From assembly GCA_021324815.1 (NCBI GenBank), contig JAJPIJ010000035.1:1-64000 (forward strand): 64,000 nt of DNA, in the 5' to 3' direction. This document shows positions 15,993-34,730 of this stretch, piece after piece. The DNA comes from Gammaproteobacteria bacterium. Its GTDB lineage: Bacteria > Pseudomonadota > Gammaproteobacteria > JAJPIJ01. Below the pieces are notes generated by a model, which worked only from the letters and a program-made list of their open reading frames with translations, did not search any database and was not told where the DNA came from. Position numbers and translations under genes: made by a program. The first letter of the stretch is position 1. Each line of letters starts with the position of its first letter.

Positions 15993-16020
15993 ATACTCTT
16001 TAGAACTTTTCAGCAAGCTG

Positions 16021-16888: not shown

Positions 16889-18652
16889 ATGGCCCCGACA
16901 AACCCGGCATCCCCAAGCCTCCCGCAGCGGCTGGTGCGCCGGGAGAACCTGCTGCTGGCGGGCATGCTGCTGCTGCTGCATCTTGCCAGCCAGTGGGGCT
17001 TTGGCTCGGCGATGTCCACCTCGCTCATGATCGCCCATCTGGGGATGTTTCTGCTCTGGCAGCCGCTGTGGCAGCGCGAATCACACCTGAGCGGCCAGCA
17101 GGGCGTCCTGTTCCTGGCCTCCATCATTGTCTTTCTCGGCACGCTGAACTGGTGGACGCTGGCGGGCTGGCAAATCCTGCTCATTGGCCTCCTCGGCGGC
17201 CGCCCGCTCGTCAGCCGCGGCGACCGGACCGTCTACATGCTGGCCCTGTTCATGCTGGTGTGCGATCTGTTGCTGGAGACCGTGCCGAACCTGTTCTTCG
17301 TGCGTGGCTTGCCCGTCCTGCTGGTGGCCGCGTTCCACTACGGGCTCCTCGTCATTCCGTTTTTGCTGCCCTTCATTCCGCTAGCGCGTACGGTGCAGGC
17401 GCGCGCGCAGGCTGTCGATTTGTTCCGCGCCGTGACCACCGCATTGATGACGGCGCTGGTCGCCGTCAGCAGTCTGCTGAGCATGTACTACTCCGGCGGC
17501 AACTATCTGACTGAATTGTTGCGGACCCTGCTGGTGCTGGCGGGGTTCCTGCTGCTGATCAGCTGGCTGCTGACCCCGCGCGCCGGCCCCGGCGGGCTGT
17601 TGCAATTGTGGGAACGTTCACTGCTCAACATCGGCACGCCCTTCGAGGACTGGCTGCTCGAACTGGCGTCACTGGCGCAGAGCGAGCCCACGCCGGCGCA
17701 ATTCCTCAATGCCGGCCTCAAGGCGCTGACGCAACTGCCCTGGTGCATGGGCGTGGCCTGGCGGGAGGATCCGCAGGCGGCGCCGGTCGGCCACGGCAGG
17801 GCGGGCCGTCATTACACCGACATCGAGGTGGACAAGCGGCGCGTGCGGCTGTACCTGCGGCAGGCGCCGGGCGCCACGCTGCTGCTGCACATCAAGCTGC
17901 TCATCAGCGTGCTTGAGGTGTTCCACGACGCCAAAACGCGCGAACAGGCGCTGGCGCGACAGGCCCACATTCAGGCCGTCTATGAAACCGGCGCGCGCGT
18001 CACCCACGACATCAAGAACCTCCTGCAATCGCTGCAAACGTTGACGATGGCGCTGATCGAGGCGGAGAACGATCCCGCCACGCGCGAACGCGGCCGGAAG
18101 CTGCTGGAAAAGCAGCTGCCCGTCATCACCCAGCGCCTGCACCTGGCGCTCGACAAGCTGCAATCCCCCGGAAAATCCAAAAGCGAGACCGCGCCCCTGC
18201 GCGAATGGTGGGAGGGGTTCAAGGCCCGCAACCAGCATGAACCGGTGGTGTTCCACGATCGAATCCCCGCCGACGCCAATCCTTCAATCCCCGTGGAGCT
18301 GTTCGACAGCGTGGCGCAGAACCTGCTTGAGAACGCCCGCAACAAGAAACAAATGGAGCGCGACCTGCGCGTCACCGCCTTGCTCACGGTGAACGATCAC
18401 GGGATTGCGCTAGAAATCAGCGATGATGGTTCGGCCATTCCGGCGGACAAGGCGCAACAACTGCTCAGTCAACCGGTGTCCTCCAGCGACGGGCTGGGAA
18501 TCGGTCTCTATCAGGCCGCGCAACTGGCGGAAGGCATGGGATACGCCTTGCGCCTGCGCCGCAACGTTCCGGGCGACGTCTGCTTCGCGCTGGAAACCGC
18601 GGACAAGCCTGCCGCGCAACGCGCCGGCCCCGCCTTGCAGCAGGTCAACTAG
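16889..18652 (+). CDS. Membrane histidine kinase, PrsK-like
   Basis: 587 aa. Residues 20-235 hold about seven hydrophobic helices; residues 250-350 look GAF-like. The phosphoacceptor block THDIKNLLQSLQ is near residue 371, then an ATPase domain with N-box NLLENARNK near 478 and G-box SDDGSAIP / GLGIGLYQA near 512-540. The seven-helix plus GAF plus H-D-[IL]-K-N-L layout resembles PrsK kinases of exosortase (PEP-CTERM) systems. No response regulator is adjacent. The best partner is the PrsR-like regulator at 33288-34730, at the far end of the pilus locus. No exosortase is present. Confidence 0.75.
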   Translation: MAPTNPASPSLPQRLVRRENLLLAGMLLLLHLASQWGFGSAMSTSLMIAHLGMFLLWQPLWQRESHLSGQQGVLFLASIIVFLGTLNWWTLAGWQILLIGLLGGRPLVSRGDRTVYMLALFMLVCDLLLETVPNLFFVRGLPVLLVAAFHYGLLVIPFLLPFIPLARTVQARAQAVDLFRAVTTALMTALVAVSSLLSMYYSGGNYLTELLRTLLVLAGFLLLISWLLTPRAGPGGLLQLWERSLLNIGTPFEDWLLELASLAQSEPTPAQFLNAGLKALTQLPWCMGVAWREDPQAAPVGHGRAGRHYTDIEVDKRRVRLYLRQAPGATLLLHIKLLISVLEVFHDAKTREQALARQAHIQAVYETGARVTHDIKNLLQSLQTLTMALIEAENDPATRERGRKLLEKQLPVITQRLHLALDKLQSPGKSKSETAPLREWWEGFKARNQHEPVVFHDRIPADANPSIPVELFDSVAQNLLENARNKKQMERDLRVTALLTVNDHGIALEISDDGSAIPADKAQQLLSQPVSSSDGLGIGLYQAAQLAEGMGYALRLRRNVPGDVCFALETADKPAAQRAGPALQQVN

Positions 18653-18680
18653 AACCTCATCTCTACTTCAACGGATGAAC

Positions 18681-18795: not shown

Positions 18796-18816
18796 TTTGT
18801 TGAGATGGGTTCCAAG

Positions 18817-19515
18817 TCAAGGAATGCGGCCGGCGGCGATCAGCCGGTTGTACAGCAGCGGCCGCGAAATCCAGATGGTGATGTCATTAAACGTCGAGGT
18901 GAACTGCCCGCCCTCATATATCGCATTGGCCGTGGTGCCATTCTCATAGGTGGCATTGTCTCCATCAGGGGTTTGATCGCTGCCTGTGGAATAAACTATA
19001 GCGACCGGTTGCCCGGATGAAGCGGCAGAGCCAGTCGTTGGAGGATCAGGAGTCAGAAAGTTTCCCGAGGCGTCCCTGACCTCCAGTTTGATTCCCGGGT
19101 ACGTGGTCATGGCTATCGCAGAAGCGTAATTTGGATCGACGCGGTAGCGGAAAAATCCCGTCCAGGGATCCGTCGTCGCGTTCCTGCCCACCCCCCACGC
19201 GTCGTATGCGTCCACCCCCAGTGTTTTCCACGGCAGGTAACCTTCGGCGGTTGGCGCCGAGCAGTTGGCGTCCTCAAGACCGTAATTTGGATCAGTGGGA
19301 TTTGCGGTCGTGGTCGGACAGGGCAGGCGACCGTTGACCACAGCGAAACCCAGCAATGCTTCGCGGATTTGCTCCAGTTGCGCCTGTGTCGTCTGCACGT
19401 TGCGCTGGCTGACTTGCGTCGACAGCGGGACCAGCAAACCACCCAGCAACAGGCTGACGATGAGCAACACCACCGCCAGCTCAATGAGTGTAAAACCAGC
19501 GTTATTTTTTTCCAT
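18817..19515 (-). CDS. Type IV pilin-like pseudopilin with LPCP/LPW domain
   Basis: 232 aa. Class III leader MEKNNAG followed by FTLIELAVVLLIVSLLLGG: prepilin peptidase would cut after Gly7, leaving Phe1 and Glu5 as in true pilins. The globular part has EALLGFA, LPCP near residue 60, GYLPWKTLG near 92 and a C-terminal ITIWISRPLLYNRL. The same LPCP...LPW...LG pattern is found in the giant protein upstream. It starts 2 bp after that gene's stop with no clear ribosome site, so translation is probably coupled. No other pilin gene is in the locus. Confidence 0.85.
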   Translation of the reverse strand: MEKNNAGFTLIELAVVLLIVSLLLGGLLVPLSTQVSQRNVQTTQAQLEQIREALLGFAVVNGRLPCPTTTANPTDPNYGLEDANCSAPTAEGYLPWKTLGVDAYDAWGVGRNATTDPWTGFFRYRVDPNYASAIAMTTYPGIKLEVRDASGNFLTPDPPTTGSAASSGQPVAIVYSTGSDQTPDGDNATYENGTTANAIYEGGQFTSTFNDITIWISRPLLYNRLIAAGRIP

Positions 19516-19517
19516 GT

Positions 19518-22500
19518 TCAGGGCGCGATAACGCGGATTTGATCGTTGAAGGAACTTGTGGCCGAGCCGGTTTGGAAATTGTCATCGCCAGTAGTGAAGT
19601 TCTGTCCCTCGAAATACTTCTGCATCAAAGTCGCACAATCCGGCGAGCAACCCAGGCTGCGATCCTGTGTGCTCAAAGCCGGACCGGCGCTGACCACGAT
19701 CGCCTGCACATCGTTTTGAACCCTGCCGGTATCGGTATGGGTAACCGTCAGGCAATCGGTCCCCGCCGTGCAGGTACCGGCGCCGCCCTGTGCGAAACCT
19801 GTCGCCTCCGCCGCGTACATGGTGCGCTGCCAGCGATTGGGAACGAACCAGGCGGGCAATGCGTTCGTGGTGCCGTCCGTCAACAACGGATAGCGTATGC
19901 CGCTGGTGCTCATCGTGCCCGTGACCTTGTCGCTTATGCTTACGGTGGTGTCCGCCAGTACATTGTTGGTGGCGTCGCGATCGATGATGTGGATCACCGG
20001 CGTCGTTCCCAGCGCGGCCTCGACCGGCGCCGTGATGGTGCCGGCAGTGGTAGTCACCGTGCGCAGCCGCTCGCCACCGGAATAGGTCGTTGTGGCTATG
20101 CCTCGATAGCGAATCTGCAGCTGATATTCCCGCGTTGAAACGTAACCGGAACGTATGATGAAACTGTCATTCGCATTTGGAGAGATTGTTGCGTTGACAA
20201 AATAAGAATTCGCCGGGCACAAAATCCCAAAAATGCTTGCGCAACTCACGAAACTGGTGAAACTTCCCACGGTACCTGTGGTGACATCTTGTATTGAATC
20301 ATTGCTCACTGTTTCAGTAAGCAATGGATCGCTGGCGCTGGCTATGGTGATATACGGTATTCCAAAAAATGTTGTGGGATCCATGGTGCCCGATTCCTGC
20401 CGCGTCGGGACAAAAACTTGATAAGCGTCACCGGCATTGAAATCGTTGGTGGCGGTGAGCGTATTGGCGCCGCCACTGCCGCTGCTGAAAGTTGCGGTGA
20501 CAATGCCCGTAATGCCAGTGGTGATGTTTTTGATCTGGGCGCCCACACGCACCCCCCAGTCAGGAGTCGCCGAGTTGGAATCAAATACGCGGGTGGCATC
20601 CACGAGCGTGTTGGGTCCGCTGCCGGCGCCAGCGGTGCCGCTGATGAACGCGGCGGCGGGCTTGCGTCCCTTGCATTCCGCCTCAGTCAGCGACGTCCAA
20701 ACGCAAACACCCTCAGTATCCGCCACGCTGATTGGACCATACGTGGTGGAACTCAATGCGAAATTTGTCGCCGCGGTGACGTAATTCGTCTCCGGCGTGG
20801 TTGCCGGCGTTGTGCCCGTGACATAGACATTCATCGCGGGCGTCAACCCGCTCGTGGACAGGTCCCAAGTGGTCGTGAAACTGCTGCGAAACGGCTTGCC
20901 GATCTCCTGCAACGGCAATAATCCTTCGCGCGCGTTGACGTTCGAGTTTGGATTGTAACGGGCGAGGCGATAAACATCGTTGTTGGAGAAATTGGAATTG
21001 CCTGATTGCCCGTAGTTCAGCCCGCCGCCGGCACTGAAGGAGGTGGACGAGACGGCGCTGATCAAACCAAAAGAGCCGGTGGTGGTATCTTGCACTAAAT
21101 CGTTGGCGGAGATGCCCATGCGATTATAGTTGCGGTTTACATCCGTGACCGTCGTTGAGGGACCACCACTCGTCACCGCCGCGGTGTCCGTGCGGATCAC
21201 GTAACTATCGCCCGGATTGAAAGTATTGGCAGTGCCGCCTTGGAGCGACTGGACGGTCAGGGAAGTATTATTTACGCCATTGATTACTCCATGTGATCCG
21301 TCGGTCACATCATCGATCACATCTCCCACCTTCACGGCGCTGTCATTGAAATCCTTGGTGGTGTCCGCCAATGTCAATCCGCTGCTGCCGGCAGATGCCG
21401 TGCCGCTATATTGATTCGCCGCCGACGAGGAGATGGGAATAATCTGGTAGCTGTCGTTCAATGCAAAACAATTATTGGTGCCGCCGGTCAATGAGGCAAC
21501 GGTGATGGTGTTCGCCGTCAAGCCCGTGATGCGTCCCACCGACCCATCCGTCAAGTCGCGAATCAGATCATTGACCGCGACCCCCCAAGCCGTGAAACTC
21601 ACACTGCTGTCGGTGAGCTGTAAATTGTTGCACGGCGGCAGGGCGGGAAGCACAGGGGTGGGAGCAGTGGCTGTGCTGATCAAACTTGGCGTCATCACCT
21701 TGGGATCGGCGTAAGGCGTCAACCACGGATAACTGCCTCCCCCGCTGCGATATGCCTGCATCGCCTTGGCCACCTCGCCCATGACGCGTTTTTCCACCGC
21801 CGCCATCAATTCCTGGCGCGTAATGGTGACCGCGCGATCATTAAAAAGGGGGTTGTCTAGACTATCGATATTGCCATCACCATTACGATCGCAGTTCGCC
21901 CGAGTCACGAAGAGAGGGTTGCTGGTTTCAAGCGTGGCGTTCGCGCATTCCAGATAGTTGCTGATGTTTGCCGGTGTAGGGCCGGCCGCGCGGTTTTGAT
22001 CGGCAAATGCCGGACCCGGCGCGATGATGATCGCCACGATGTCACTGCCACCATCCACAGTAAGTTGTCCGGGTATTTCGCTGTTGAGTGGCACCTGGTA
22101 ATTCTTGTAACGGTGATTGTTGTCCACGGCATACCACAGCCGCTCACCCGCGCCGTCGCGCAAATCCGGAAGTCCGAGATAACGCCAGGGCAACAAACCG
22201 ACCGCGGTGGCGGTCACCATGCTGCATGACCCCACGGGACTGCCCGAGTTCGTTGTATCCGGGCAGGGAAGATAACCCGGCCCTATGGTTGAACTTGAGG
22301 GTGAAACCAGTTCCGGATACGTCGCGGCATAACCAAGCAAGGCCTCCTTCGCGCGCGCCAGGGAAACCGCGGTGACTTCATCGCGGTAGCTTTGCTGCGC
22401 CTGCTGGTTGAGTTTCTTCAGGAAAATATACGAGGAGACGGAGACGAGCAGCAGCATCACCAGCAGCAACACCACGCCGCGCTGGCGCGCTGCCGTTTTC

Positions 22501-22535
22501 CAACTGCGCGGTGACCGTCGGCGATGCCAAGGCAT
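19518..22535 (-). CDS. Giant GspK/PilX-like pilus-tip candidate with five repeated modules
   Basis: 1005 aa from the ATG at 22535. Residues 18-42 (QRGVVLLLVMLLLVSVSSYIF) form a pilin-like anchor without the 'FTLIE' Glu5, as in GspK/PilX. Next comes a LPCP...LLPWRYLGL domain shared with the neighbouring pilin, then a calcium-type loop DRNGDGNIDSLD (21855-21890). Five modules of about 60-75 residues follow, at roughly 21400-21620, 21190-21385, 20965-21150, 20410-20610 and 20150-20345; each has a D-x-T-[DT]-G-x-x-G core and ends near G/N-D-x-Y/F. The C-terminus reads FNDQIRVIAP, like the FNDITIWI end of the pilin. A longer non-ATG frame would read into the upstream repeat and is rejected. Confidence 0.8.
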   Translation of the reverse strand: MPWHRRRSPRSWKTAARQRGVVLLLVMLLLVSVSSYIFLKKLNQQAQQSYRDEVTAVSLARAKEALLGYAATYPELVSPSSSTIGPGYLPCPDTTNSGSPVGSCSMVTATAVGLLPWRYLGLPDLRDGAGERLWYAVDNNHRYKNYQVPLNSEIPGQLTVDGGSDIVAIIIAPGPAFADQNRAAGPTPANISNYLECANATLETSNPLFVTRANCDRNGDGNIDSLDNPLFNDRAVTITRQELMAAVEKRVMGEVAKAMQAYRSGGGSYPWLTPYADPKVMTPSLISTATAPTPVLPALPPCNNLQLTDSSVSFTAWGVAVNDLIRDLTDGSVGRITGLTANTITVASLTGGTNNCFALNDSYQIIPISSSAANQYSGTASAGSSGLTLADTTKDFNDSAVKVGDVIDDVTDGSHGVINGVNNTSLTVQSLQGGTANTFNPGDSYVIRTDTAAVTSGGPSTTVTDVNRNYNRMGISANDLVQDTTTGSFGLISAVSSTSFSAGGGLNYGQSGNSNFSNNDVYRLARYNPNSNVNAREGLLPLQEIGKPFRSSFTTTWDLSTSGLTPAMNVYVTGTTPATTPETNYVTAATNFALSSTTYGPISVADTEGVCVWTSLTEAECKGRKPAAAFISGTAGAGSGPNTLVDATRVFDSNSATPDWGVRVGAQIKNITTGITGIVTATFSSGSGGANTLTATNDFNAGDAYQVFVPTRQESGTMDPTTFFGIPYITIASASDPLLTETVSNDSIQDVTTGTVGSFTSFVSCASIFGILCPANSYFVNATISPNANDSFIIRSGYVSTREYQLQIRYRGIATTTYSGGERLRTVTTTAGTITAPVEAALGTTPVIHIIDRDATNNVLADTTVSISDKVTGTMSTSGIRYPLLTDGTTNALPAWFVPNRWQRTMYAAEATGFAQGGAGTCTAGTDCLTVTHTDTGRVQNDVQAIVVSAGPALSTQDRSLGCSPDCATLMQKYFEGQNFTTGDDNFQTGSATSSFNDQIRVIAP

Positions 22536-22752: not shown

Positions 22753-23211
22753 TCAGGGCCTGGCGGAGGCGGCATTCGCCGGCGCGGCGTAGAGATCGGT
22801 GATGCGCCCGGTTTCCGGGTGATAGGTCTGGCCCGGCTTCAAGCCCACGTCGGGCAGATGATCGGGGGTCTGCACGGTTATCCGCGCGCCGCGCAGGTCC
22901 TGGGTGTCGACCGTCACGTGATCCGCGCTCAAGTCCCCGTCGTAGGTGTTCTTGCCGTTGACCCAGGCGGTGGACTCGCCGCGCGAGCGGACCACGACGC
23001 CGTTCACCGTCACCGGCGGGACTTCCGGCGGCGTCTGGACGGCCACCGGCGCGGGCGGCGGCGCGGGCTTCGCCACGACCGGCGGCGCGGTGCGCAACTG
23101 CTGCAATTGCGCGCGCTCCTCGGGGGTGGTGAACAGCCGTCCCAAGGGGTCGGCGGCGGCGCCCACGGAGAACAGCGTCACGACCAACAGCATGGCGGAG
23201 CGCGCGGTCAT
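22753..23211 (-). CDS. PilP/MshK-like periplasmic protein
   Basis: 152 aa with a signal peptide (residues 1-20, ending GAAAD), a proline-rich spacer (residues 43-66) and a short beta-rich domain with VTVNGVVVRSRGESTAWVNG, the GspC/PilP/MshK 'HR-like' pattern that contacts the secretin. Last gene of the machine part of the locus, 10 bp after the PilO-like gene. Assignment rests on position and this motif. Confidence 0.6.
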   Translation of the reverse strand: MTARSAMLLVVTLFSVGAAADPLGRLFTTPEERAQLQQLRTAPPVVAKPAPPPAPVAVQTPPEVPPVTVNGVVVRSRGESTAWVNGKNTYDGDLSADHVTVDTQDLRGARITVQTPDHLPDVGLKPGQTYHPETGRITDLYAAPANAASARP

Positions 23212-23221
23212 GTCCGCTTCC

Positions 23222-23845
23222 TCACTGCATCACAATGCCGGTGCCCGGCAGGTTGATGGTGTACCACTGCAATTCGCAACTGGCGCCGATGTTTTTGCGA
23301 TTCGCCAGCATCTGGATGACGGCCTCGGTGCGCGTGAAGCTGCACTTGCTGACGCTGTAGAGGCCATCCGCCTGCTTGTCCAGCGCCTCGAGGAGGCTCA
23401 GAAAATCCCCTTCGTGCAGCAGGCCCAAGTCCAGCTTCATGGCGCTGCTGTAGATCTGGAAGGCGCCGGTGTTCAGCGCAAAGGGCGGCGTGTACGGCGC
23501 CTGTGCGGCGATCTGATAATTCAGCTGCGGCAGTTTGATCGCCTTGCCGGCCTTGAGGAGGACCTCCAGCCAGTTGAGCCGGTTTTCCGGGCCCACGATG
23601 CCGCGCTGCTGCAGCGCCATGAATTTCGGCCGCTGCTCGCGGAAGGTTTTTTCCTCCTCATCCACGGACAGGTAGCGCTGGCTCACGTCGTGGAAACGGT
23701 GGTGCACGGCCTGGTTGTCCTTGTACATGCGGGCCCTGAAATCATAGGCCCCGGTCAGCAGGCCGCCGCTCAGCACGGCGCACGCAAGAAACAGCATGAT
23801 TGCGCCCCGGAGATAAGCCCAGTCAAATTTGCGGTTGCCGGCCAT
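23222..23845 (-). CDS. PilO/MshJ-like inner-membrane assembly protein
   Basis: 207 aa: a single N-terminal helix (residues 14-32), a coiled-coil-prone stretch (residues 35-75) and a C-terminal ferredoxin-like region. This is the layout of PilO/GspM-type alignment-complex proteins. Its start ATG directly follows the TAA of the PilM-PilN-like gene, so the two are coupled. Sequence similarity by eye is weak; position supports the call. Confidence 0.6.
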   Translation of the reverse strand: MAGNRKFDWAYLRGAIMLFLACAVLSGGLLTGAYDFRARMYKDNQAVHHRFHDVSQRYLSVDEEEKTFREQRPKFMALQQRGIVGPENRLNWLEVLLKAGKAIKLPQLNYQIAAQAPYTPPFALNTGAFQIYSSAMKLDLGLLHEGDFLSLLEALDKQADGLYSVSKCSFTRTEAVIQMLANRKNIGASCELQWYTINLPGTGIVMQ

Positions 23846-25555
23846 TTATGATGCCTTCACGCCCAAAACCACGCGCACGCTGAAACGGGCCTCCTGCGGC
23901 CTGACCTCGCCGCTGGCGCTGCCCTGGAGGCTGGCGCTGGAGCTCACGTCCAGCGGCAGCGCCAGCACCTTCACTTCATAAATGGAAGGCTGCGATTTGA
24001 GCGCGCCGCTGAAGGCATTGACGCGCTCAAGCGCGTGCTGGTAATCGCCGTCGAAATGGGAGATGTGGCCGCTGATCTCGGCGATGTGATAGTAGGGGTA
24101 GGTCGCCGACGCGGCGATCGGCGCCACCACCGCCGGAGCGCTCCTGGCCGGCGCGGCGGCCGGCGCCGCCGGGTTCTGGGCCTGGGCCGCACCCGAGATC
24201 ACGGCCTGCGGATCCACGTTGGCGGCCCAGTCGATTTTGTCCACCTGCAACTCCGGGAAGGATTCGAGGGCGTGACCCACCGTGGACAGCAGTGGGACGG
24301 GGCTGGCCTTGTAGCGCATCAGCGTGCCGGCGATGTCGACGGCGGTCCTCATGCCGTAGGCGTCCACCGATGTCCTGGGTATGCGTTCGCGCGCCTGCTG
24401 ATAACGGGCCTCGTAGTAGTCGGCCTTGTGGCTCAAGTCCTCCGCCTCCTGATGCAGGGTGACGCCGTCGAAAAGCTCAAAGCCGCTCCAGAACGTGCCG
24501 CCCAGCAACAGCAGCAGCGAGGCCACCTGCAACGCGCCGCGCATCCTGTAGAGGCCGAAATAATGCATGGCCGGGCGCGGCGCGTAATGATTCGCGGGGC
24601 GCTGCGAGAGCAGCAACTGCACGAACAGCAGATAGCTGTAGGGACCTTCCACGTGGCCGGCGATGCCGGTCTTGTGCGCGACCGTGCCGATGTCGATGAG
24701 CTGATAGCGAACCTGGTCGGTGTCCACGCAGGCCGGCTCGAGCTCGGCGGTCAGCGCCCCGCCGGTCAGGATGTACACCGACAGCGGCGCGTCGCGCGAG
24801 GACATGCGCATGCTGTTCAGATAGCGGCGTATCTTTTCCACCTCGCCGGTCACGTAGGGGCCGTAGGGCGCCGTGCCCAGCCGCGGCAGCTTGGCCTGAC
24901 GGCTGAATTTGAACTGTTGATCCCTGAAGAAGGTCTGCCGCAGGCCGCTGGCGCTGTGCAGGCTGACCAGGAGCACGTTGGGATCGCGGGCGCCGAGCCG
25001 GGAGAGCAGCAGGCGGCTCAACATCGGCAGCGAATACACGCCGGCCAGCGGCACCTTGCACCGCTCCAGCACCTGCAACAGGGCGTCGAAAAAATCCTGC
25101 TGGGTCAGGGCGCACAGAAGAATGTTGTCGTCGCGACGGCCCTCGGTCTCGCGGCCCTGCGTCAGGCAGTGGTGGTAGCGCGTGCCGCGGAACAGCTTCG
25201 CCACCCGCCGCTCGATCAGGGCCTTGCGATCAGAGCCGAAGACGTGCGGGATGGTGTCCTGCCGGAACTCCTCCTCGACCACGTCCGCCAGCAGGTATAG
25301 CGGCACGTCGGGATCGGCCCGCAAATACTGCTCCAGTTGCGCCAGGGCCGGGTCGACGCCGGCGGCCATTTCGGCCTCGCCGCCCGCGGCGGCCCTGCCC
25401 CCCTCCAGTATTCTTTGCTTCAACGCCGACAAATCGAAATGCCGGGCGTCGCTCAAGGCCCCGCCCTGCCAGTCGTAGATCGACGCCCGGTCGCCGCTGA
25501 CCACCAGGGCCCGCCGGTTGAACAGGTCAAACCTTGATTTTGGTGATGAGGTCAT
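23846..25555 (-). CDS. PilM-PilN (MshI/GspL-like) fusion protein
   Basis: 569 aa. Residues 1-330 resemble the actin-fold cytoplasmic part of PilM/GspL. A single membrane helix follows at about 347-366 (GALQVASLLLLLGGTFWSG), and the periplasmic part (370-569) has PilN/GspL-like coiled coil plus an Ala/Pro-rich linker near 465-490. In classical T4P these are two genes, in T2SS one (GspL). The 29-bp overlap with the GspF-like gene and the single upstream ATG fix the start. Expected to link the ATPase to the periplasmic alignment complex. Confidence 0.65.
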   Translation of the reverse strand: MTSSPKSRFDLFNRRALVVSGDRASIYDWQGGALSDARHFDLSALKQRILEGGRAAAGGEAEMAAGVDPALAQLEQYLRADPDVPLYLLADVVEEEFRQDTIPHVFGSDRKALIERRVAKLFRGTRYHHCLTQGRETEGRRDDNILLCALTQQDFFDALLQVLERCKVPLAGVYSLPMLSRLLLSRLGARDPNVLLVSLHSASGLRQTFFRDQQFKFSRQAKLPRLGTAPYGPYVTGEVEKIRRYLNSMRMSSRDAPLSVYILTGGALTAELEPACVDTDQVRYQLIDIGTVAHKTGIAGHVEGPYSYLLFVQLLLSQRPANHYAPRPAMHYFGLYRMRGALQVASLLLLLGGTFWSGFELFDGVTLHQEAEDLSHKADYYEARYQQARERIPRTSVDAYGMRTAVDIAGTLMRYKASPVPLLSTVGHALESFPELQVDKIDWAANVDPQAVISGAAQAQNPAAPAAAPARSAPAVVAPIAASATYPYYHIAEISGHISHFDGDYQHALERVNAFSGALKSQPSIYEVKVLALPLDVSSSASLQGSASGEVRPQEARFSVRVVLGVKAS

Positions 25556-26732
25556 AAATCGGTCCCAGCACGGAAAGCATGACCCAGCCCAGGAGCGCGC
25601 CCATGATAACCGTCATGGTCGGCTCGATCAGCGTTTGCAGCTTGGCGATGGATTCCCTGACATCGCGGCTGTAAAAATAACCGACGTTGACCAGCGCCGT
25701 GTCCAGGGCGCCGGTGTTCTCGCCCACGCGCAGCATGCGCAGCACCAGCGGCGGAAACAGGCCGGAGGCGGAGAAGCTGGCGGCGATGCCGGCGCCGTCG
25801 GCGATGCGCCGGCCGGCGTCCTGTATGGCCGCCTCGATGGCCTTGTTGCCGACGATGTCGGCGCCGATCCGCATGCAATCCAGCACGGTGACGCCGGAGG
25901 TATACATCAAGGCGAAATTGTTGGCAAAGCGCGCCAGGATGGTCTTCTTCAGGATCGGGCCGACGACCGGCACGTTCAGCATCCAGCCGTCGACCCTGGC
26001 GCGAAAGGCGGGACTGGTGCGTATCCCCACCAGCACGCCGACGACCGCCGCGACGGGCAGGCCCAGGATCAGGTACCAGTACTTCACGAACACGTTCGAC
26101 ACGAAGACGAGTATGCGCGTGTGCAGCGGCAGTTGCTGGCCCATGTTCTTGATGAACTGCAGCAGTTGCGGCACCAGGTAAATCATGAGGAAAAACAGCA
26201 CGGCGGTCACCACCACGAATACGAAGGCGGGATACATGAACAGCTTCTTGGTCTGCTCGGCCTGCTCGTCCGCCCATTTGAGGTTTTCGGTCATCTGCCG
26301 CAGCACCTCCGGCAGCTGGCCGGCCTCCTCGCCGACCCGGACCAGGTTGACGAAGACGTTGTCGAACACCTGCGGAAAGTCGCCCAGCGCCTGCGACAGG
26401 TTCTTGCCGCCCTGGATGGATTCGACCATGGCCGCGCAGATTTCCCGCAGCCGGCGGCTTTCCATGCTGTCGCGGAGATCGGCCAGCCCCTCCAGGATGG
26501 GCACGCCGGCGCGCACCAGCTGCTCCAGGTGAAAACAGAAGTTGATCAGGTCGACGCGCTTGATGCCCCGTCCCGTCATGTTCTTGCCGCGCGCCTTGAC
26601 CTCGCGGTAGTTGACCAGCTCCATGCCCATGCGGCTCAAGCGCAGCTCCAGATCGCCGACGTTCACCGCGTCCAGGCTGCCCTGCATGACGCGGCCCTGG
26701 GGGGTGACGGCCTTGTAGTGGTACATCTCCAT
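25527..26732 (-). CDS. mshG: GspF/PilC/MshG-type inner-membrane platform protein
   Basis: 401 aa with the two GspF domains (about residues 65-190 and 270-395) and three long helices (near 170-190, 220-240 and 375-395). Motifs FCFHLEQLVRAGVPILEGL and LRMLRVGENTGALD are standard. It rotates with the assembly ATPase to extract pilins from the membrane. Gap to the ATPase gene is 10 bp. Confidence 0.9.
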   Translation of the reverse strand: MEMYHYKAVTPQGRVMQGSLDAVNVGDLELRLSRMGMELVNYREVKARGKNMTGRGIKRVDLINFCFHLEQLVRAGVPILEGLADLRDSMESRRLREICAAMVESIQGGKNLSQALGDFPQVFDNVFVNLVRVGEEAGQLPEVLRQMTENLKWADEQAEQTKKLFMYPAFVFVVVTAVLFFLMIYLVPQLLQFIKNMGQQLPLHTRILVFVSNVFVKYWYLILGLPVAAVVGVLVGIRTSPAFRARVDGWMLNVPVVGPILKKTILARFANNFALMYTSGVTVLDCMRIGADIVGNKAIEAAIQDAGRRIADGAGIAASFSASGLFPPLVLRMLRVGENTGALDTALVNVGYFYSRDVRESIAKLQTLIEPTMTVIMGALLGWVMLSVLGPIYDLITKIKV

Positions 26733-26742: not shown

Positions 26743-28461
26743 CTAGGCCAGCCGCTCCGTCAAATCCACCACGCGCGAGATTTCGTCGATGCTGGTGATG
26801 CCCTCGTTGACGCGGCGGATCGCCACGTCGGCCAGCGTCTTGAAATTCTTGGACTGCGCCAGGGCGTTCAATTCCTTGAGGGTGGCGGCGCGGGCGATGG
26901 CCTCGTCGATGTCGCGATCAAATCGGAGCAGCTCCATGAGCGCGGTGCGGCCCTTGTAGCCCTGGTTGTCGCAATGCACGCAGCCCTTGGCCCGGTAGAT
27001 CACCTGCGGTCCCGGCGTCAGCTTGATGTTCAGCAGCTTGCGCTCCAAATCGCTCGGCTCGTAGGCCTCCTTGCACTGCGGGCACAGCTTGCGCACGAGG
27101 CGCTGGGCGATGACGCCGATGATGTTGCCGGCCATGATTTCTGGCCGGATGCCGATGTCGATGAGGCGCGAAACCGCGCCGAGCGCGGAGTTGGTGTGCA
27201 GGGTGGAGAAGACCTGGTGGCCGGTCATGGCGGCGCGGAAGGCCATGGTGGCGGTCTCCTCGTCGCGGATTTCGCCGATCAGGATGATGTCCGGGTCCTG
27301 GCGCAGGATGGCGCGGATGCCGTTGGCGAAGTCCACGCGCACGTTGTCGCTGATCGCCGTCTGGCGTATGCGGCTCATGGGATATTCCACGGGGTCTTCC
27401 AGGGTCATGATGTTGACGTCCTCGGTGTTCAGGTGATTGAGCACCGAGTACAGCGTGGTGGTCTTGCCCGATCCGGTCGGGCCGGTGACCAGCAGGATGC
27501 CCTCCGGGCGCGCCACCATCAGCCGCAGGGTGTTGAGCACGTCGTCCTCGAGACCGAGCTGATCCAGCGCGACGATGCCCTTCTGGCGATCGAGGATGCG
27601 CAGCACGATGTTCTCGCCGTGCACGGTCGGCAGCGTGGAGACGCGGAAATCGATGGGATGGCCCATCAGCGACAGCGAGATGCGCCCGTCCTGCGGCGCG
27701 CGCATCTCGGCGATGTCCATGCCCGACATGACCTTGAGTCGCACCGCGATCGCCGGCCAGTAGTTCTTGTGCAGGCTGCGGGTCTGGCGCAGCACGCCGT
27801 CGATGCGGTAGCGGAAGCGCAGGAAGCCCTCCTCCGGCTCGAAATGGATGTCGGAGGCGCCGCGCTTGACGGCGTCGCCGAGCAGGGCGTTGACCAGCCG
27901 CACCACCGGCTGGCTGTATTCGCCGCTGTCCCTCTCCAAGCTGGCATAGTCGATTTCGCCGGTCTCGATCTCCTGGAGGATGCCGTCCACCGACAGCTCG
28001 TAGCCGTAGAAACGCTCGATGGCCTTGTCGATCTCGGTGTCGATGGCCAGCACCGGCACGATCTCGACGTCGCCGCCCAGGAGCGCGGCGAGCTGATCCA
28101 GGACCACGACGTTGAAGGTGTCCGCCATGGCCACCGACAGGCGGTTGCGATTCATGTCATAGGTCAGCGGCAGGACGCGGAAGCGGCGGGCGGCCTCCTT
28201 GGGCAGCAGCTTGATGGCCTCGTTGTCGGCCACCACTTTTTCCAGATCGACGCTCTGCTGGCCCAGCGCCCCGCCGAGCACGTCGAGGATGACGGCCTCG
28301 GTGGCGAAACCGAGGCGGACGAGGATTTTGCCGAGGTGCTCCTTCTGCTTTTTCTGCTCGGTGAGGGCGATGCGGATCTGGTCATGGCTGACCACGCCCT
28401 TCTCGACCAGCAGTTCGCCGATGCGCAGCGTGGCAGGTTGCTTGGGACTCATGTCAGCCAT
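26743..28461 (-). CDS. mshE: MshE-type pilus assembly ATPase with c-di-GMP-binding MshEN domain
   Basis: 572 aa. Residues 10-65 match the MshEN c-di-GMP motif: RIGELLVEKGVV...LTEQ (24 residues), five residues, then HLGKILVRLG...QQ. The GspE core shows Walker A GPTGSGKTTTL near 325, the Asp box, Walker B ILIGEIRDEET near 386 and a CPQC...CVHC zinc site near 467-495. Extension rather than retraction ATPase by family. c-di-GMP control is inferred from the motif. Confidence 0.92.
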   Translation of the reverse strand: MADMSPKQPATLRIGELLVEKGVVSHDQIRIALTEQKKQKEHLGKILVRLGFATEAVILDVLGGALGQQSVDLEKVVADNEAIKLLPKEAARRFRVLPLTYDMNRNRLSVAMADTFNVVVLDQLAALLGGDVEIVPVLAIDTEIDKAIERFYGYELSVDGILQEIETGEIDYASLERDSGEYSQPVVRLVNALLGDAVKRGASDIHFEPEEGFLRFRYRIDGVLRQTRSLHKNYWPAIAVRLKVMSGMDIAEMRAPQDGRISLSLMGHPIDFRVSTLPTVHGENIVLRILDRQKGIVALDQLGLEDDVLNTLRLMVARPEGILLVTGPTGSGKTTTLYSVLNHLNTEDVNIMTLEDPVEYPMSRIRQTAISDNVRVDFANGIRAILRQDPDIILIGEIRDEETATMAFRAAMTGHQVFSTLHTNSALGAVSRLIDIGIRPEIMAGNIIGVIAQRLVRKLCPQCKEAYEPSDLERKLLNIKLTPGPQVIYRAKGCVHCDNQGYKGRTALMELLRFDRDIDEAIARAATLKELNALAQSKNFKTLADVAIRRVNEGITSIDEISRVVDLTERLA

Positions 28462-28598: not shown

Positions 28599-30353
28599 TC
28601 ACGGGGGTCCTCCGGCACCGGCATCGGACAGGGCCTGGATGCGCCCAAGGACCTGGTCCGTGGCAAAGTTGACCGGCTGCTTGTCGGCCAAATCCAGCGC
28701 CTCACGGTAGTAATTCAGCGCCGTTTTACGCTCGCCCAGATGATCGAGGCTTACCGCCAGATTGTATACGTAATCGGTATTGTGGGGATCCTGCTTGTAG
28801 GCTTCGAAATAGGCCTGTTGCGCCTCGGGCCAGCGTCCCTGGTGGGCATACACATTACCCAGGAGATAATGCACGTGCGCGGCCTTGGGATCCTGCTGCA
28901 GCAGCAGCTTGAGTTCGCTTTCGTCGGCCACGGTCGGCTGTTCGCGCCGCAATGCGGTCCAGGCCGCCTGGGCATAGGCGTCGTTGGGGTTCAGGCGCAG
29001 CAGCCGGCCGTAGAACTCCCCGGCACCGGCGCGGTCGCCTCTACGCTGGGCGATGGCCGCCAGGCCCAGCAGGGCGTCGCGTTGATCCGGCTGTTTGTCC
29101 AGCACCTCGCGGTACAACTGCTCGGCGCGCCAGTAATCCGCGGACTGGTAGGCATCGTACGCCTGTTGAATCTTCGGGTTGATGGTCTTGGTCGCGGGAA
29201 CGGTGCTGATCCTGATCTCGCCCGGCGAGACATCATAGGTCGAGGCGGCGACCTGATTTTGATCGGAGGCCGCGATCGCGGGTTTTGACTTGGGGGACGT
29301 TTTGCCCTTGAGGGCCTTCCTCGGCGGCTGTTTTTCCTGCTCCACCGCCACGGCCGGTTTTTCCGTCACTTGCTTCCCGCCCGTTTCCGCAACCGCCGCG
29401 GCCGGTTGCTCCGGGGCTGGCGCAGCCGGGGCGGCGGGTGCCGCCGCGACTTCCGCCTTTTCCGCCGGCGACGGCGTGGCGCTCTCAGCCGCGGGTGCCG
29501 GCGGGGCCTCTGCCGCCACCGGCGCCGCGGACGCGGATTCAGCGGCGGCCGGTGAAGGCTGTTCGGCTTGCGGCGGCGCAACCGCCTGCTCAAGACTCGG
29601 CTGGGGTTGTACTTCCGGCACCGCCGCCGGCCCAGGCACGGCGCCAGCCATGGCGGATGCCGGCAGCGGGCGCACGGGGGGAACGGTCTTCCAATACAAA
29701 AATCCCATGGCCGCCGCGAAGATCACCATGCCCGCCACCACCGCCAGGGCCAGCGCGGCCACGGGCGAACGGCGTCGCGACGGGAGGGCCAGCACCGCCT
29801 GCGCAGCCATCGGCGTGTCCCTCAAGGCGGCGCGCCCCGGCGGCGGCAGCTCCATGCGCCCGGTGCGGACACCCTCGGCCTTTGTCTCGGTGACGGTGGT
29901 TTCGCTGGTGGTGGACGGCGCTGACGGAGTCTCCGCCGGCGCCGATGCCTCCTCAAGGCGCGCCAGGGGGGGTGGGGAGGGCTCCGTCAGGCTGATGGGC
30001 TCGCCGTACTCGTACGGCTCCTCCGCCGCCAGATCGATCTCCCTGGCCCTGCCGGGCGGGAATTCCTCATGCTCCCGCGGAGCCAGCGCATAGCGATCAG
30101 CCTCCTCTTCCCCGGGCGGGGCGGGGGGCGGCAACGGCTCGGCGGTGGGTGTCCGCTCGATGGGCTCAAGGCTTAGCTTGCTGGTGTCGAAGGTGCCGGT
30201 GAACGGCGGCACGGGCGCCTCGCCCGGCGTGACGCCGGCGCCCGGAACCGCGGCATGCTCGCCGGTGCGCGTTACCTTCAGGCTTTGCTGTTCGAGGGCG
30301 GCCTTCTTTTTTTCCGCCTCCGCCTTTTTCAACGCCTCCATGAGCAGGCTCAT
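28599..30353 (-). CDS. mshN: MshN-like TPR protein
   Basis: 584 aa. N-terminal MSLLMEALKKAEAEKK is the hallmark of MshN/GspA-B-associated proteins. A single membrane helix lies near residues 196-217, followed by an Ala/Pro/Glu-rich linker (220-345) and four to five TPR repeats (about 400-570: AYDAYQSADYWRAEQLYREV and following). Probably a periplasmic scaffold that supports secretin assembly. 10 bp downstream of the secretin gene. Confidence 0.85.
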   Translation of the reverse strand: MSLLMEALKKAEAEKKKAALEQQSLKVTRTGEHAAVPGAGVTPGEAPVPPFTGTFDTSKLSLEPIERTPTAEPLPPPAPPGEEEADRYALAPREHEEFPPGRAREIDLAAEEPYEYGEPISLTEPSPPPLARLEEASAPAETPSAPSTTSETTVTETKAEGVRTGRMELPPPGRAALRDTPMAAQAVLALPSRRRSPVAALALAVVAGMVIFAAAMGFLYWKTVPPVRPLPASAMAGAVPGPAAVPEVQPQPSLEQAVAPPQAEQPSPAAAESASAAPVAAEAPPAPAAESATPSPAEKAEVAAAPAAPAAPAPEQPAAAVAETGGKQVTEKPAVAVEQEKQPPRKALKGKTSPKSKPAIAASDQNQVAASTYDVSPGEIRISTVPATKTINPKIQQAYDAYQSADYWRAEQLYREVLDKQPDQRDALLGLAAIAQRRGDRAGAGEFYGRLLRLNPNDAYAQAAWTALRREQPTVADESELKLLLQQDPKAAHVHYLLGNVYAHQGRWPEAQQAYFEAYKQDPHNTDYVYNLAVSLDHLGERKTALNYYREALDLADKQPVNFATDQVLGRIQALSDAGAGGPP

Positions 30354-30363: not shown

Positions 30364-32040
30364 TCACGGCGTGGTGTTGCTGGATTGCTCGGGCGGTTTG
30401 ACGACGCCGGTGTCGAAGGGGGGATTCAGGAAGGGTTTGTAGGGCTTGAAGTCGCCATTGAGACTGGCGTCCTTGATCACCGTCGGCCGCAGGAAAACGA
30501 CCAGCTCCTGCTTGACATAGTTGTTATCACGCTGTTTGAACAACTCGCCAAAAGGAAAAATGTCCTGCAACCAGGGAACGCCCTGTGTCGTGGCTCTCAC
30601 ATCATCAGTCATCAATCCACCCAACACCGCCGTTTGGCCGCTGTAAACCCGCAACAAGGATTCCAATTCCCGCGTCTGGATTTGCGGAATCTGGCTGCCG
30701 ATGGCTGCAAGATCCGGATTCGGATCGGGAACGCTTCCCGTCGTGCGGGAAATCGTTGGACGCACATTCAGCATCACAACATTATTCTCGTTGATTTGCG
30801 GTGTCACGCTCATCACCAGTCCCACGGGAACCGTGTGCGGTGTTGTTGTGATTGCCTTCACCGCATTTGTGTTGACGTTGCCGGCTGCCACGGATTCCTG
30901 TGCAGTGAAATACACGATGTTATCGACCACTTTTATAACCGCCGTTTGGTTGTTTAACACCATCAATTTCGGGCTGGACAATACTTTGACGTCGCCATAC
31001 TCCTTGAGCAGACTTAATGTCACATCAGTGCCATTTGTGCCGGTATATTCAAAAGTAAAAAACTGCCCCAGCGATGCTGGATTGAAAGGGGATCCGGCGG
31101 AGTGCACGCGGATATTAAATTGCGAGCCTAACTCACCAGCAACTTTGGACCAGTTAATTCCGGCGGTATAACGATCGTTCAGGGTCACCTCCACTATGGT
31201 GGCCTCCACCAGCACCTGTCGCTCGGCGCTCGACATTACATGATCAAGCAATTTCTGGATTTGGGCATGCTGGCGGGAATTGGCCAGCACGGTGATGATG
31301 CCGGTTTCCGGATTGGGAATGACCGATTTTGAAATCGGCACGCTGCCGGGCGTGCTCGTGGTGGTTGGCGCTTCACCCACGATTGCGATCATGTTATTCA
31401 CCAGCGTCGTCCAGAAACGCTGATTGGAGGTGCTGGAGACGCTGGTGGTGGAATTATTCAGGCCGGCGCCGGCGGCGCCACCACTGGTCGCCGTACCACC
31501 TGTACCGCCTCCCATGGCTCCGGTGGTCGTGTCAGTGCTACCAACGCCCGTCACTTGCGTGGAGACGGTTTCCGTAGTGGTTGTATCACGCGACATGTTG
31601 ACGTAGTTGACCTTGTAGGTCTCGAAGTACGGCGTGTCGGGGGAGATGACGATGGTGCTACCTTTGATTTCATAACGCAGGTTCACCTGCTCGGCGATGC
31701 GCTCGAGGATTTGCGGCAGCGTCTGCTGCACGGCGTTCAGCGTCACCACGCCGGTGATCGCCGGATTGATGTCCACGTTCATGCCGGCGTCGCGCGCGAC
31801 GGCAAACAGCAGCTCCTTCACCGGCACTTCATTGACGACGACCGTGTAGCGTTCGGGTTCGGCGGTGGGTTGCGGCGCCGGCAGTGGCGGCGGGTTTTCA
31901 ACGACGCCGGGGATGGGCGCGGTGGCCGGCGTTTCCGGCTCGGCCTGGATGTGGCCGGTGGAGGTGTCGCGGGGCGCGGTCACCAATTGGGCGCAGGCGC
32001 CCAGCACCGCCGCGAACACGACTATCAGATAACGCTTCAT
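30364..32040 (-). CDS. mshL: MshL-type secretin
   Basis: 558 aa outer-membrane pore protein. Lipoprotein-like signal with LGACA at residues 13-17; STN/N0 domain (about 66-130); a Gly/Thr/Ser-rich linker around 165-200; then N1 and secretin domain (235-540) with VEATIVEVTLNDRY and VLGGLMTDDVR. It opens a new block after a 182-bp AT-rich spacer (32041-32222) that may hold a promoter. Confidence 0.92.
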   Translation of the reverse strand: MKRYLIVVFAAVLGACAQLVTAPRDTSTGHIQAEPETPATAPIPGVVENPPPLPAPQPTAEPERYTVVVNEVPVKELLFAVARDAGMNVDINPAITGVVTLNAVQQTLPQILERIAEQVNLRYEIKGSTIVISPDTPYFETYKVNYVNMSRDTTTTETVSTQVTGVGSTDTTTGAMGGGTGGTATSGGAAGAGLNNSTTSVSSTSNQRFWTTLVNNMIAIVGEAPTTTSTPGSVPISKSVIPNPETGIITVLANSRQHAQIQKLLDHVMSSAERQVLVEATIVEVTLNDRYTAGINWSKVAGELGSQFNIRVHSAGSPFNPASLGQFFTFEYTGTNGTDVTLSLLKEYGDVKVLSSPKLMVLNNQTAVIKVVDNIVYFTAQESVAAGNVNTNAVKAITTTPHTVPVGLVMSVTPQINENNVVMLNVRPTISRTTGSVPDPNPDLAAIGSQIPQIQTRELESLLRVYSGQTAVLGGLMTDDVRATTQGVPWLQDIFPFGELFKQRDNNYVKQELVVFLRPTVIKDASLNGDFKPYKPFLNPPFDTGVVKPPEQSSNTTP

Positions 32041-32222: not shown

Positions 32223-33272
32223 CTAATTCGACGGCGGCGTGCCGCCGGGTCCCGCCAGGTATTTTCCGGATGCTCGATCCGGCTCCGGTGCGACCGCGCC
32301 CGGACCGCCGGGGGCGTTGCCGAGGGTGTTCTTCACCGCCGCGGGAGGCTGCGGAAATCCAAACGGCGTGTCGGTCAGCCAGCCATAGAGCGCGATGCCC
32401 ATCACCACCAGCAGACCGGCGGCCGCCGCCACCGCCCAGGGCCACCAGTTGTGCCCGGACTCGACCAGGAACTCGCTGTCCTGCGCGGCGATCAGCACAT
32501 GCCTGCGATCGACGCGCGTGGCGTTCTCCGCGTAGGCCGCCAGCATGGCCTTGTCGGCGAGAATATTGATGCGGCGGAGCAGTCCGCGCGAATGCCGGGC
32601 GATGGCGCGCACGGCCGCCGGCGTGAAGGGCTCGCCGGCGCGGTAGCCGCACGCCAGCAGGCGCGAGTTGATATAGGCCCTGATCTCGTCCGCCGTGAAC
32701 GGCGCCAGATAAAAATGATAGGTGATGCGCTCGCGCAGCTGGCGGATCTCGTGCAGGCCGAGCGTATCATCCAGTTCGGGCTGGCCGAATAACACGATTT
32801 GAAGCAGCTTGTCCTCGCTGGTTTCGAGGTTGGTCAACAGCCGGATTTCCTCGAGGGTCGCCACCGGCATGCTTTGCGCCTCCTCGATGAACACCACCAC
32901 GCGGCGGTTGTCGGCGTGCTTGCGCAGCAGGAAGTCCTGCAGCACCTGCAGCACCTTGAGCCGGTCATCGCCGTTGTTCACCGGCAGTTTCAGTTCGAAG
33001 GCGATGGCGTGCAGCACGTGTTCCGGCGCCAGACGCGGATTGGCGAAATAAACGATCTCGACGTTCCTGGGCAGTTCCACTTCCAGCATGCGGCAGAGCA
33101 TGGTCTTGCAGCTGCCGACCTCGCCCACCACCTTGATGACGCCCTCCCCGCTGGTGATGGCGTAGATCAGCGCATCCAGCGTGGCGCCGCGATTGCCGCC
33201 GGTGAAAAACAGCCGCGGATCGGGGGTGATTTTGAACGGCGCCTGCTTGAGCCCGAAATAGTTGTAGTACAT
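32223..33272 (-). CDS. mshM: MshM/ExeA-like AAA ATPase with variant Walker A
   Basis: 349 aa. N-terminal YFGLKQAPFKITPDPRLFF and the AAA domain (about 30-270) identify the ExeA/MshM family, which helps assemble the secretin through the peptidoglycan. A membrane helix is near 284-302 and a Pro/Gly-rich periplasmic tail follows. The P-loop reads GEVGSCKT: the glycine before the lysine is Cys (codon TGC), and Walker B is FIEEAQ rather than DEA. Whether it still hydrolyses ATP is doubtful. 15 bp downstream of the regulator gene. Confidence 0.85.
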   Translation of the reverse strand: MYYNYFGLKQAPFKITPDPRLFFTGGNRGATLDALIYAITSGEGVIKVVGEVGSCKTMLCRMLEVELPRNVEIVYFANPRLAPEHVLHAIAFELKLPVNNGDDRLKVLQVLQDFLLRKHADNRRVVVFIEEAQSMPVATLEEIRLLTNLETSEDKLLQIVLFGQPELDDTLGLHEIRQLRERITYHFYLAPFTADEIRAYINSRLLACGYRAGEPFTPAAVRAIARHSRGLLRRINILADKAMLAAYAENATRVDRRHVLIAAQDSEFLVESGHNWWPWAVAAAAGLLVVMGIALYGWLTDTPFGFPQPPAAVKNTLGNAPGGPGAVAPEPDRASGKYLAGPGGTPPSN

Positions 33273-33287: not shown

Positions 33288-34730
33288 CTATCGATCGGCC
33301 TCCGACTGGAGGCCCAGTCGCTGCAACCGGCTGTAGAAATGTGTGCGGTTGATGCCCAGCAACCGCGCCGCCTTGCTGATGTTGCCGGCGCTCAGGCGCA
33401 ACGCTGCTTGAATATAACGACGCTCCCATTCCTCCAAAACATCCGCAAGGACAAATCCAGCGCGCCGGATTTCCTCTTCGATTTCCGCGCCACCGCCCTG
33501 CTCCCGCGTCTCGGGGGCATAATCCGTCTCCAGCTCCGCCTCAATCTCCGCGGGGCCGACGCTGCGGCCGGCGTATTTGGCGGACAACCGGATGACGATG
33601 TTGCGCAGTTCGCGCACGTTGCCGGGAAAAGCGTACCGCTGCAGCCGTTCCGCGCCCTCCCCAGTAAGCGTGAACGGCGGCATCCGGCCCGTGTACAGCG
33701 CGCGAAACGTCTCGAACAGCTTCATCGCGTCGCCTTCGCGCTCACGCAGCGGCGGCACACGCACGGTAAGCACGCCAAGCCGATGATACAAATCCGCCCG
33801 GAAACGGCCGCCGCGCACCTCTTCGCGCAAATCGCGATTGGTGGCGGCCAGCACGCGCGCCTCCGTGCGGCGCGGCTCGGTCTCCCCGATGCGGTAGTAC
33901 TCGCCGTTCTCCAGCACGCGCAGCAGCTTGGGCTGCAGACTCAGGGGGAATTCGCCGATCTCATCCAGAAACAACGTGCCCTGGCTCGCCTGCTCGAAGA
34001 ATCCCGGCTTGGCGGTTTCGGCGCCGGTGAAGGCGCCGCGCGCGTGGCCGAAGAGCTGCGCCTCCAGCAGCTCCGGCGTGAAGGCGGCGCAGTTGATGGC
34101 CAGAAACTTCTCCCGCGAGCGTTCGCTCTCGGCGTGGATCGCCTGGGCCACCAGTTCCTTGCCGCTGCCGGATTCGCCCTCGATGAGCACCGGGAAGGGC
34201 GTCTTGGCGAACTGGCGGATGAGCGCACGCAGCGTGTTCATGGCCGGGCTGTCGCCCAGCAGGCGCGCGGGGACGGGCTGCGCCTCCTCCGGCTCCTCGG
34301 CGGCCAGCATCATCTGCTGATATTCCAGCCGCGATTTCAGCAGACCGATGTCGCAGGGCTTGGGGACGAAATCCACCGCGCCCAGGGTCAGCGCGTGGCG
34401 GATGTTGGCGCGCTCGTTCTGGCCGGACAACACCAGGATCTTCATGCCCGGATTGAACGCCAGCAAATCCTCCACCAGCGCGAAGCCCTCCTCCGGTGCG
34501 TGCGGCGCCGGCGGCAGGCCGAGATCGACCAGCGCCAGCGACGGCGGGGATGTCGAACGGCGCAGCAGGGCCTTGGCCTCCCCGCGCGTGGCGGCGGTGA
34601 GCACCTGATAGCGATCTTCAAGCACGAAACGGAGGGATTCGACGATCAGCGGATCATCGTCGACAAGCAGGAGCAGCGGCCGCTCAGCGGCGCGATCAGC
34701 TGCTTGCAGGCTGCTTTTCTGCGCGGTCAC
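33288..34730 (-). CDS. Sigma-54-dependent response regulator, PrsR-like
   Basis: 480 aa. Receiver domain (about 18-140) with LLLVDDDP, VDLGLPP and KPCD. Its VDLGLPP-x(6)-EG stretch resembles PrsR of exosortase systems. AAA+ domain (about 160-390) with Walker A GESGSGKE, the sigma-54 contact loop GAFTGA and GTLFLDEIGEF. C-terminal Fis-type helix-turn-helix (NISKAARLLGINRTHFYSRL). It heads the pilus gene run. Probable partner is the kinase at 16889-18652. I could not find a convincing -24/-12 promoter by eye. Confidence 0.88.
   Translation of the reverse strand: MTAQKSSLQAADRAAERPLLLLVDDDPLIVESLRFVLEDRYQVLTAATRGEAKALLRRSTSPPSLALVDLGLPPAPHAPEEGFALVEDLLAFNPGMKILVLSGQNERANIRHALTLGAVDFVPKPCDIGLLKSRLEYQQMMLAAEEPEEAQPVPARLLGDSPAMNTLRALIRQFAKTPFPVLIEGESGSGKELVAQAIHAESERSREKFLAINCAAFTPELLEAQLFGHARGAFTGAETAKPGFFEQASQGTLFLDEIGEFPLSLQPKLLRVLENGEYYRIGETEPRRTEARVLAATNRDLREEVRGGRFRADLYHRLGVLTVRVPPLREREGDAMKLFETFRALYTGRMPPFTLTGEGAERLQRYAFPGNVRELRNIVIRLSAKYAGRSVGPAEIEAELETDYAPETREQGGGAEIEEEIRRAGFVLADVLEEWERRYIQAALRLSAGNISKAARLLGINRTHFYSRLQRLGLQSEADR

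Follow-up and report, generated by a model that had tools for sequence, protein, structure and literature searches.

A large Glu5-less pilin in an MSHA-like operon carries predicted beta-barrel modules that also occur in phage virion proteins

The window, by which we mean the whole stretch of 64,000 nucleotides analyzed here, encodes on its reverse strand (19518 to 22535) a protein of 1005 amino acids counted from the ATG at 22535, which we call the large pilin. A TTG start upstream of this ATG would add 26 amino acids. The initial annotation had described a prepilin leader, a long hydrophobic helix, and the absence of Glu5, and all of these held. Leader cleavage is predicted after Gly20, which is invariant in the family alignment; the N-terminal helix spans amino acids 15 to 72 in the AlphaFold2 model; and Glu5 was found in 0 of the 96 family members in which that helix could be located. 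No usable match to the whole protein was obtained in Pfam, NCBIfam, PHROGs, or the PDB sequences, and scanning the genome contigs with the single large-pilin sequence gave no match. The full-length model (46 sequences) reached a pLDDT of 82.6 and a pTM of 0.81, and a Foldseek search with it against the PDB returned nothing usable and was uninformative. Because the Foldseek matches were weak or missing, structure comparison did not confirm a pilin fold for the core. In the gap before the gene, a stretch at about 22600 to 22650 resembles a palindromic repeat (TTCGCCCTGAGG...TCGAAGGGCGAA), and an open reading frame near 18.7 kb (about 18650 to 18800) that reads VRPEVSKG...GLSLSK suggests a similar element there.

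The large pilin is encoded by the penultimate gene of a conserved operon (Table 1), and its gene adjoins that of the small pilin in 20/20 neighborhoods. The recurring order is NtrC-MshM-MshL-MshN-MshE-MshG-MshI-MshJ-MshK-large pilin-small pilin, often with a divergent kinase gene, and short contigs lack the distal genes. Only two pilins are encoded at the window locus, from which MshB/A/C/D/O/P/Q are absent. The locus points to a widespread type of MSHA-like operon with two pilins only, for which current nomenclature has no name separate from MSHA. Near the kinase gene lie two small genes (15127 to 16803), one whose product has no family match and one for an ABC-2 type permease, which relatives retain in part next to the operon. 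At the other end, an open reading frame of 191 amino acids for an IS1595/ISXO2-type transposase, possibly truncated, lies at 34888 to 35463, flanked by the NtrC gene and by a gene whose product resembles methylenetetrahydrofolate reductase.

Table 1. Positions of the large-pilin features and of the neighboring genes in the window
Feature	Position	Strand	Large-pilin residues	Evidence or remark
Histidine kinase, divergent	16889..18652	+		HATPase_c; beside operon in most relatives
Small pilin pil2, companion	18817..19515	-		N_methyl PF07963 above cut-off; Glu5 present (GFTLIE)
C-terminal lobe, conserved	19521..19880	-	886-1005	PAWF..NRW...CLTV...AG..LS.QDR...YFE...FND; alignments A1 and A6
Middle domain, part 2	19881..20141	-	799-885	alignment A1
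Module 5 (array B), divergent	20142..20378	-	~720-798	core DVTTGTVG at 750-757
Module 4 (array B, second insertion site)	20415..20642	-	632-707	HMM 45.5 bits
Middle domain, part 1, conserved	20643..20960	-	526-631	REGLLP...C-W...C-G; found in module-free relatives
Module 3 (array A)	20964..21182	-	452-524	HMM 48.8 bits; AF2 strands
Module 2 (array A)	21192..21407	-	377-448	HMM 90.5 bits; AF2 of module alone
Module 1 (array A)	21441..21629	-	303-365	HMM 77.6 bits; AF2 strands
Pilin core, lobe 1, conserved	21681..22319	-	73-285	LPCPD...LWYAV...IIAPG...YLE...FNDR...ITRQELMAAVEKR...YPWL; alignments A1 and A6
EF-hand-like loop DRNGDGNIDSLD	21855..21890	-	216-227	specific to window protein
N-terminal pilin helix	22320..22475	-	21-72	mature residue 5 is Leu, no Glu5
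Class III (prepilin) leader MPWHRRRSPRSWKTAARQRG	22476..22535	-	1-20	sequence and family alignment
MshK-like	22753..23211	-		position and conserved order; no family match
MshJ-like	23222..23845	-		position and conserved order; no family match
MshI-like	23846..25555	-		position and conserved order; no relevant family match
MshG-like platform protein	25527..26732	-		PF00482
MshE-like ATPase, c-di-GMP-binding N domain	26743..28461	-		PF05157 and PF00437; NF053729 58.6 bits, cut-off 38
TPR protein, MshN-like	28599..30353	-		TPR families; conserved order
MshL secretin	30364..32040	-		TIGR02519 262 bits, cut-off 250
MshM-like ATPase	32223..33272	-		AAA_22; TIGR03015 below cut-off
NtrC-type response regulator	33288..34730	-		conserved upstream of operon

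A second MSHA locus, of canonical type, is present in the same genome on another contig (C24; L065, L216), where position and match identify MshI, J, K, L, M, E, G, F, A, C, D, O, and P; the names of the small MshI/J/K/F-type genes come from position and alignment rather than from curated models. The MshA-type set on C24 is accompanied by its own machine but might also be shared with the machine of the window, and the MshE encoded there is 40% identical to the MshE of the window. At the very end of that contig (C24:35077-35154, genome G000), a match below the cut-off to the last positions of DUF6701 (MshQ-type) suggests an mshQ gene cut by the assembly. A search of the genome found one prepilin peptidase, which could serve all of its systems. 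The absence of a dedicated prepilin peptidase from MSH loci has been noted (PMC6668835).

A reading of the large pilin as a one-off giant was not supported. Instead, as judged by sequence, it belongs to an unnamed and widespread pilin family in which modules have been put into loops. Relatives, for the most part with open reading frames of 400 to 650 amino acids, are present in 70 of the 369 genomes sampled from the class, and weaker N-terminal matches extend to other classes of the phylum. Most of the family lacks modules, including the member in a family-level relative of the window genome (G002), and these module-free proteins mostly have about 350 to 650 amino acids. Aligning 15 members revealed a conserved core made of an N-terminal lobe with YPWL..P at its end, a middle domain that begins with REGLLP and bears a C-W...C pair, and a C-terminal lobe that starts with P-x-W-F..N-x-W and ends in FND. 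The modules of the window protein and its longer relatives occupy gaps of this core alignment, and module-free relatives align across the insertion sites. Across the family, insertion is confined to two or three fixed places: array A lies between YPWL and REGLLP (three modules in the window protein), array B inside the middle domain (two modules), and a third site, used in some genomes, just before P-x-W-F.

Five cores of the form D/N-x-T-[DT]-G-x-x-G, at amino acids 327, 409, 483, 670, and 750, mark these modules. Their reality, as first reported from the sequence, was borne out by 2000 composition-preserving shuffles, which gave a mean of 0.02 cores and a maximum of 2. Scored with a module profile built from relatives, modules 1 to 4 are strong copies of a module of about 72 amino acids, and module 5 by itself reaches a nonsignificant 0.6 bits. 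We nevertheless read core 5 as a divergent copy, because the equivalent place is significant in three relatives (L033, 7e-5; L034, 2e-12; L076, 8e-12) and because the strands around it in the full-length model (747 to 750, 755 to 764, 767 to 773, and 791 to 798) follow each other in the order seen for the other four cores. Predicted alone with 88 module sequences, module 2 gave a small beta-barrel with a pLDDT of 93.8 and a pTM of 0.83. Strand order, compared from the DSSP listing of the full-length model, was identical in all five stretches. The modules were expected to have one fold, and stretches that did not share a fold, the outcome named as refuting this, did not occur given the common strand order. 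Refining the profile on large pilins yielded 165 copies in 30 proteins, with the consensus SGTATAGSNGLTLTDTSADFSALGVKAGDLVENLTDGSIGVVTSVSATTLTVTSLSGGTENDFDAGDSYRIR.

Searches of families and PDB sequences with the module gave no usable match, and none of the family databases searched names the module, in keeping with the statement of the initial annotation that it has no named function. When 25 modules were compared with Ig-like families, 1 touched Big_2 at an E value of 0.058 and none rose above the cut-off. Foldseek matches of the module to the PDB were weak, comprising a phage tail tube (E value of 0.03), N-terminal barrels of V/F-ATPases, and a tailspike.

We also asked what became of the proposal that calcium stabilizes the modules through an EF-hand-like loop preceding them. 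The loop is present, and DRNGDGNIDSLD fits the PROSITE EF-hand pattern PS00018, a match to which occurs in 1.1% of shuffles. It is not conserved, however: a PS00018 match anywhere was found in only 8/101 relatives, at differing positions, and the homologue from the same genus (L033) lacks the loop. Furthermore, the loop is located in lobe 1 of the pilin core, roughly 75 residues ahead of module 1, and blocks of low model confidence surround it. Because it lies upstream of and outside the modules and is unconserved, we found no link between calcium and the modules and rejected the proposal that calcium stabilizes them. A different loop, PDxDxDG-like and located after LPCPD, was found with a simple pattern in 42/101 family members, the window protein not being among them, so that the family may have a metal site in its pilin core.

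We then looked for the module outside pilins. In the class sample it was found in large pilins and in one other protein only (genome G220), and in the phylum-level sample it was found in 1/398 genomes, the window's own. The G220 protein is encoded in a prophage, with terminase, portal, and head protease genes on one side and tail terminator and tape measure genes on the other. That part of the prophage (L218, 8163 to 11724) encodes two uncharacterized virion-region proteins, of which the first has the module and neither matches PHROGs. Scanning IMG/VR with one degenerate pattern identified 40 viral contigs that encode relatives. Among the proteins that carry modules are a baseplate hub (L177), in which four copies separate the PF09931 domain from the PF09356 domain, a tail-tube protein (PF18906; L190), SU10-type head-tail adaptors (L175 and L181), and fibre-like proteins. 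Among viral structures (BFVD), the best Foldseek match of the module had an E value of 1.2e-5, a TM score of 0.82, and 33% identity. A tblastn search against plasmids and INPHARED phages gave nothing beyond one match at an E value of 0.8, and the phage evidence therefore consists of the IMG/VR contigs, the one prophage, and the BFVD structure matches. Bacterium and virus thus seem to have in common one surface-display building block that is unnamed in the searched databases.

From these results, we consider it reasonably likely that the large pilin is a minor pilin of modular build. It would most likely be the Glu5-less subunit with which the filament of a second MSHA-like machine begins and by which it is capped, and it would display accessory barrels common to phages, probably for binding. 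Surface loops of its conserved two-lobed core contain two tandem arrays (three plus two copies) of the predicted beta-barrel, which is also an accessory domain of phage baseplate hub, tail-tube, head-tail adaptor, and fibre-like proteins. These barrels would give the pilus tip several low-affinity binding surfaces, as is thought for the Ig-like accessory domains of phages. The protein would presumably be exported, assembled into the filament, and positioned at its tip; this filament is probably an MSHA-related pilus about which little has been described. Type 4 filaments begin from a tip complex whose cap is a Glu5-less subunit (PMC10191384), pilins with grafted modules are an established adhesion strategy (PMC8179133), and phage Ig-like domains, which occur as additions to proteins of the tail, baseplate, and head, have been linked to host adhesion via carbohydrates (PMC7602432). 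It is from these three precedents that we infer binding faces at the pilus tip and a binding or adhesive role for the modules. As ligand, surface polysaccharide is a first guess. In favor of this reading, the large-pilin gene changes fastest of all genes in the operon within the genus, and the trees of core and modules, both described below, show the modules to be largely inherited by position. Speaking against it, the modules are optional, most of the family being without them, and no binding or catalytic motif was recognized. The module is a small and confidently predicted domain that is suitable for binding tests.

The modules could instead be passive spacers, which as rigid beads would make the tip pilin longer or stiffer and keep its middle and C-terminal domains off the filament while binding nothing. 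Tandem arrays of variable module number at fixed loops would suit such beads, as would the lack of any conserved binding motif beyond residues that appear structural and the occurrence of the phage module in head-tail adaptor proteins, which are not obvious surface binders. However, the modules diverge as fast as the core or faster and are not kept uniform, and one array lies within the middle domain rather than between the filament and a tip domain. We regard spacers as rather unlikely.

Less probable still is a secretion-type pseudopilus, in which the large pilin would be a GspK-like cap that pushes or recognizes exported proteins and the modules would recognize the substrate. A locus with only two pilins is compatible with this, as is a small pilin that resembles GspG/GspH, below their cut-offs. 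The likeness to GspK that had been proposed for the large pilin is real as far as the missing Glu5 but ends there: T2SSK of Pfam, searched up to an E value of 1, did not match the protein, on which ground we rejected its membership in GspK, and a gspG-H-I-J-K neighborhood was not found around it. Moreover, the secretin is an MshL equivalog, the ATPase has the c-di-GMP domain of MshE, and the operon lacks family matches to GspC, GspL, and GspM.

The module being common to pili and phages, the tip might also copy a virion surface module in a phage-host conflict, acting as a decoy or blocking phage attachment sites. The large-pilin gene does change faster than the rest of the operon. Between two species of the genus, it is the most divergent operon gene, at 48% identity, compared with 67% for the MshN-like gene, 68% for the small pilin gene, 74 to 76% for MshK/MshJ/MshI, 90% for MshG, and 96% for MshE (67 to 91% for the operon without MshE and the large pilin). 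Such fast divergence fits an exposed protein, and relaxed or weak constraint would look alike. Against a conflict, the arrays are old. In the module tree, modules cluster largely by their position in array A, which suggests that the array is old and was inherited as such. On the tree of core columns, module presence needs 3 changes, compared with 15.6 when shuffled, a result that a single gain with two losses would explain on this tree, which was taken as unrooted and without direction. In addition, no phage of these hosts is known to use the window pilus, and we judge this explanation very improbable.

The weakest alternative, that pilin and phage modules resemble each other by convergence of Thr/Gly/Ser-rich beta repeats rather than by common descent, could appeal to the biased composition of the module region (14.6% Thr, 11.3% Ser, and 10% Gly) but was rejected by a decoy test, in which a pilin-only profile scored phage modules at up to 71.2 bits, with 39 stretches at 40 bits or more, and reversed and shuffled decoys of the same phage proteins at no more than 5.9 bits. 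The whole motif order is also common to pilin and phage modules.

How the favored tip pilin came by its modules can be outlined tentatively. Phage modules account for 3 changes among the 120 rows of the module tree, and in an AU test the phage modules as one clade were not rejected (P = 0.34), with 70 columns being too few to fix the root and with it the direction of transfer. Conceivably, though we would not call it likely, an ancestral gammaproteobacterium on one occasion acquired a phage virion surface module that is undescribed in the searched databases. The module would have become an insertion cassette at the tip of an MSHA-like filament with two pilins, itself an undescribed type of machine, and would have been retained since, so that tailed phages and pili, each with this barrel at their tips, contact one class of bacterial or environmental surfaces. 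One common, unnamed surface module links phage tails with what is probably a pilus tip.

Several known systems resemble parts of this one. The operon shares with the MSHA pilus of Vibrio cholerae (MSH of Denise et al. 2019, PMC6668835) the MshL equivalog, the MshE-type c-di-GMP ATPase, MshG, MshM, and the MshN-like and MshI/J/K-like proteins; it differs in gene order and in having two pilins only, without MshB/A/C/D/O/P/Q. GspK, the tip pseudopilin of the type II secretion system (T2SS), likewise lacks Glu5 and has extra mass inserted in the pilin part, which in GspK is an alpha-domain (PMC8179133). In the large pilin, by contrast, the insertions are predicted beta-barrels, and there is no T2SS gene neighborhood. 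The tailed-phage Ig-like accessory domains (PMC7602432) are, like the module, promiscuous beta domains on tail, baseplate, and head proteins, for which binding to surface carbohydrates has been proposed. The module, however, reaches no Ig-like cut-off and is predicted to form a small barrel that weakly resembles the N-terminal barrels of V/F-ATPases and phage tail-tube proteins. A further parallel, in architecture, is with PilB and PilC of Streptococcus sanguinis (Raynaud et al. 2021, PMC8179133), which also have an N-terminal pilin part and extra domains that are not pilus specific and are thought to be displayed at the tip for adhesion. The large pilin has two features of such modular type IV pilins, namely, a prepilin leader with a hydrophobic N-terminal helix behind it and an extra domain that is not confined to pili. 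PilB has one domain after its pilin module, whereas the large pilin has tandem barrels in two or three loops of a two-lobed core, and these barrels are common to phage virions and unnamed in the searched databases. The large pilin is best read as a modular pilin whose unnamed module is common to phage virions and which belongs to a poorly described MSHA-like machine.
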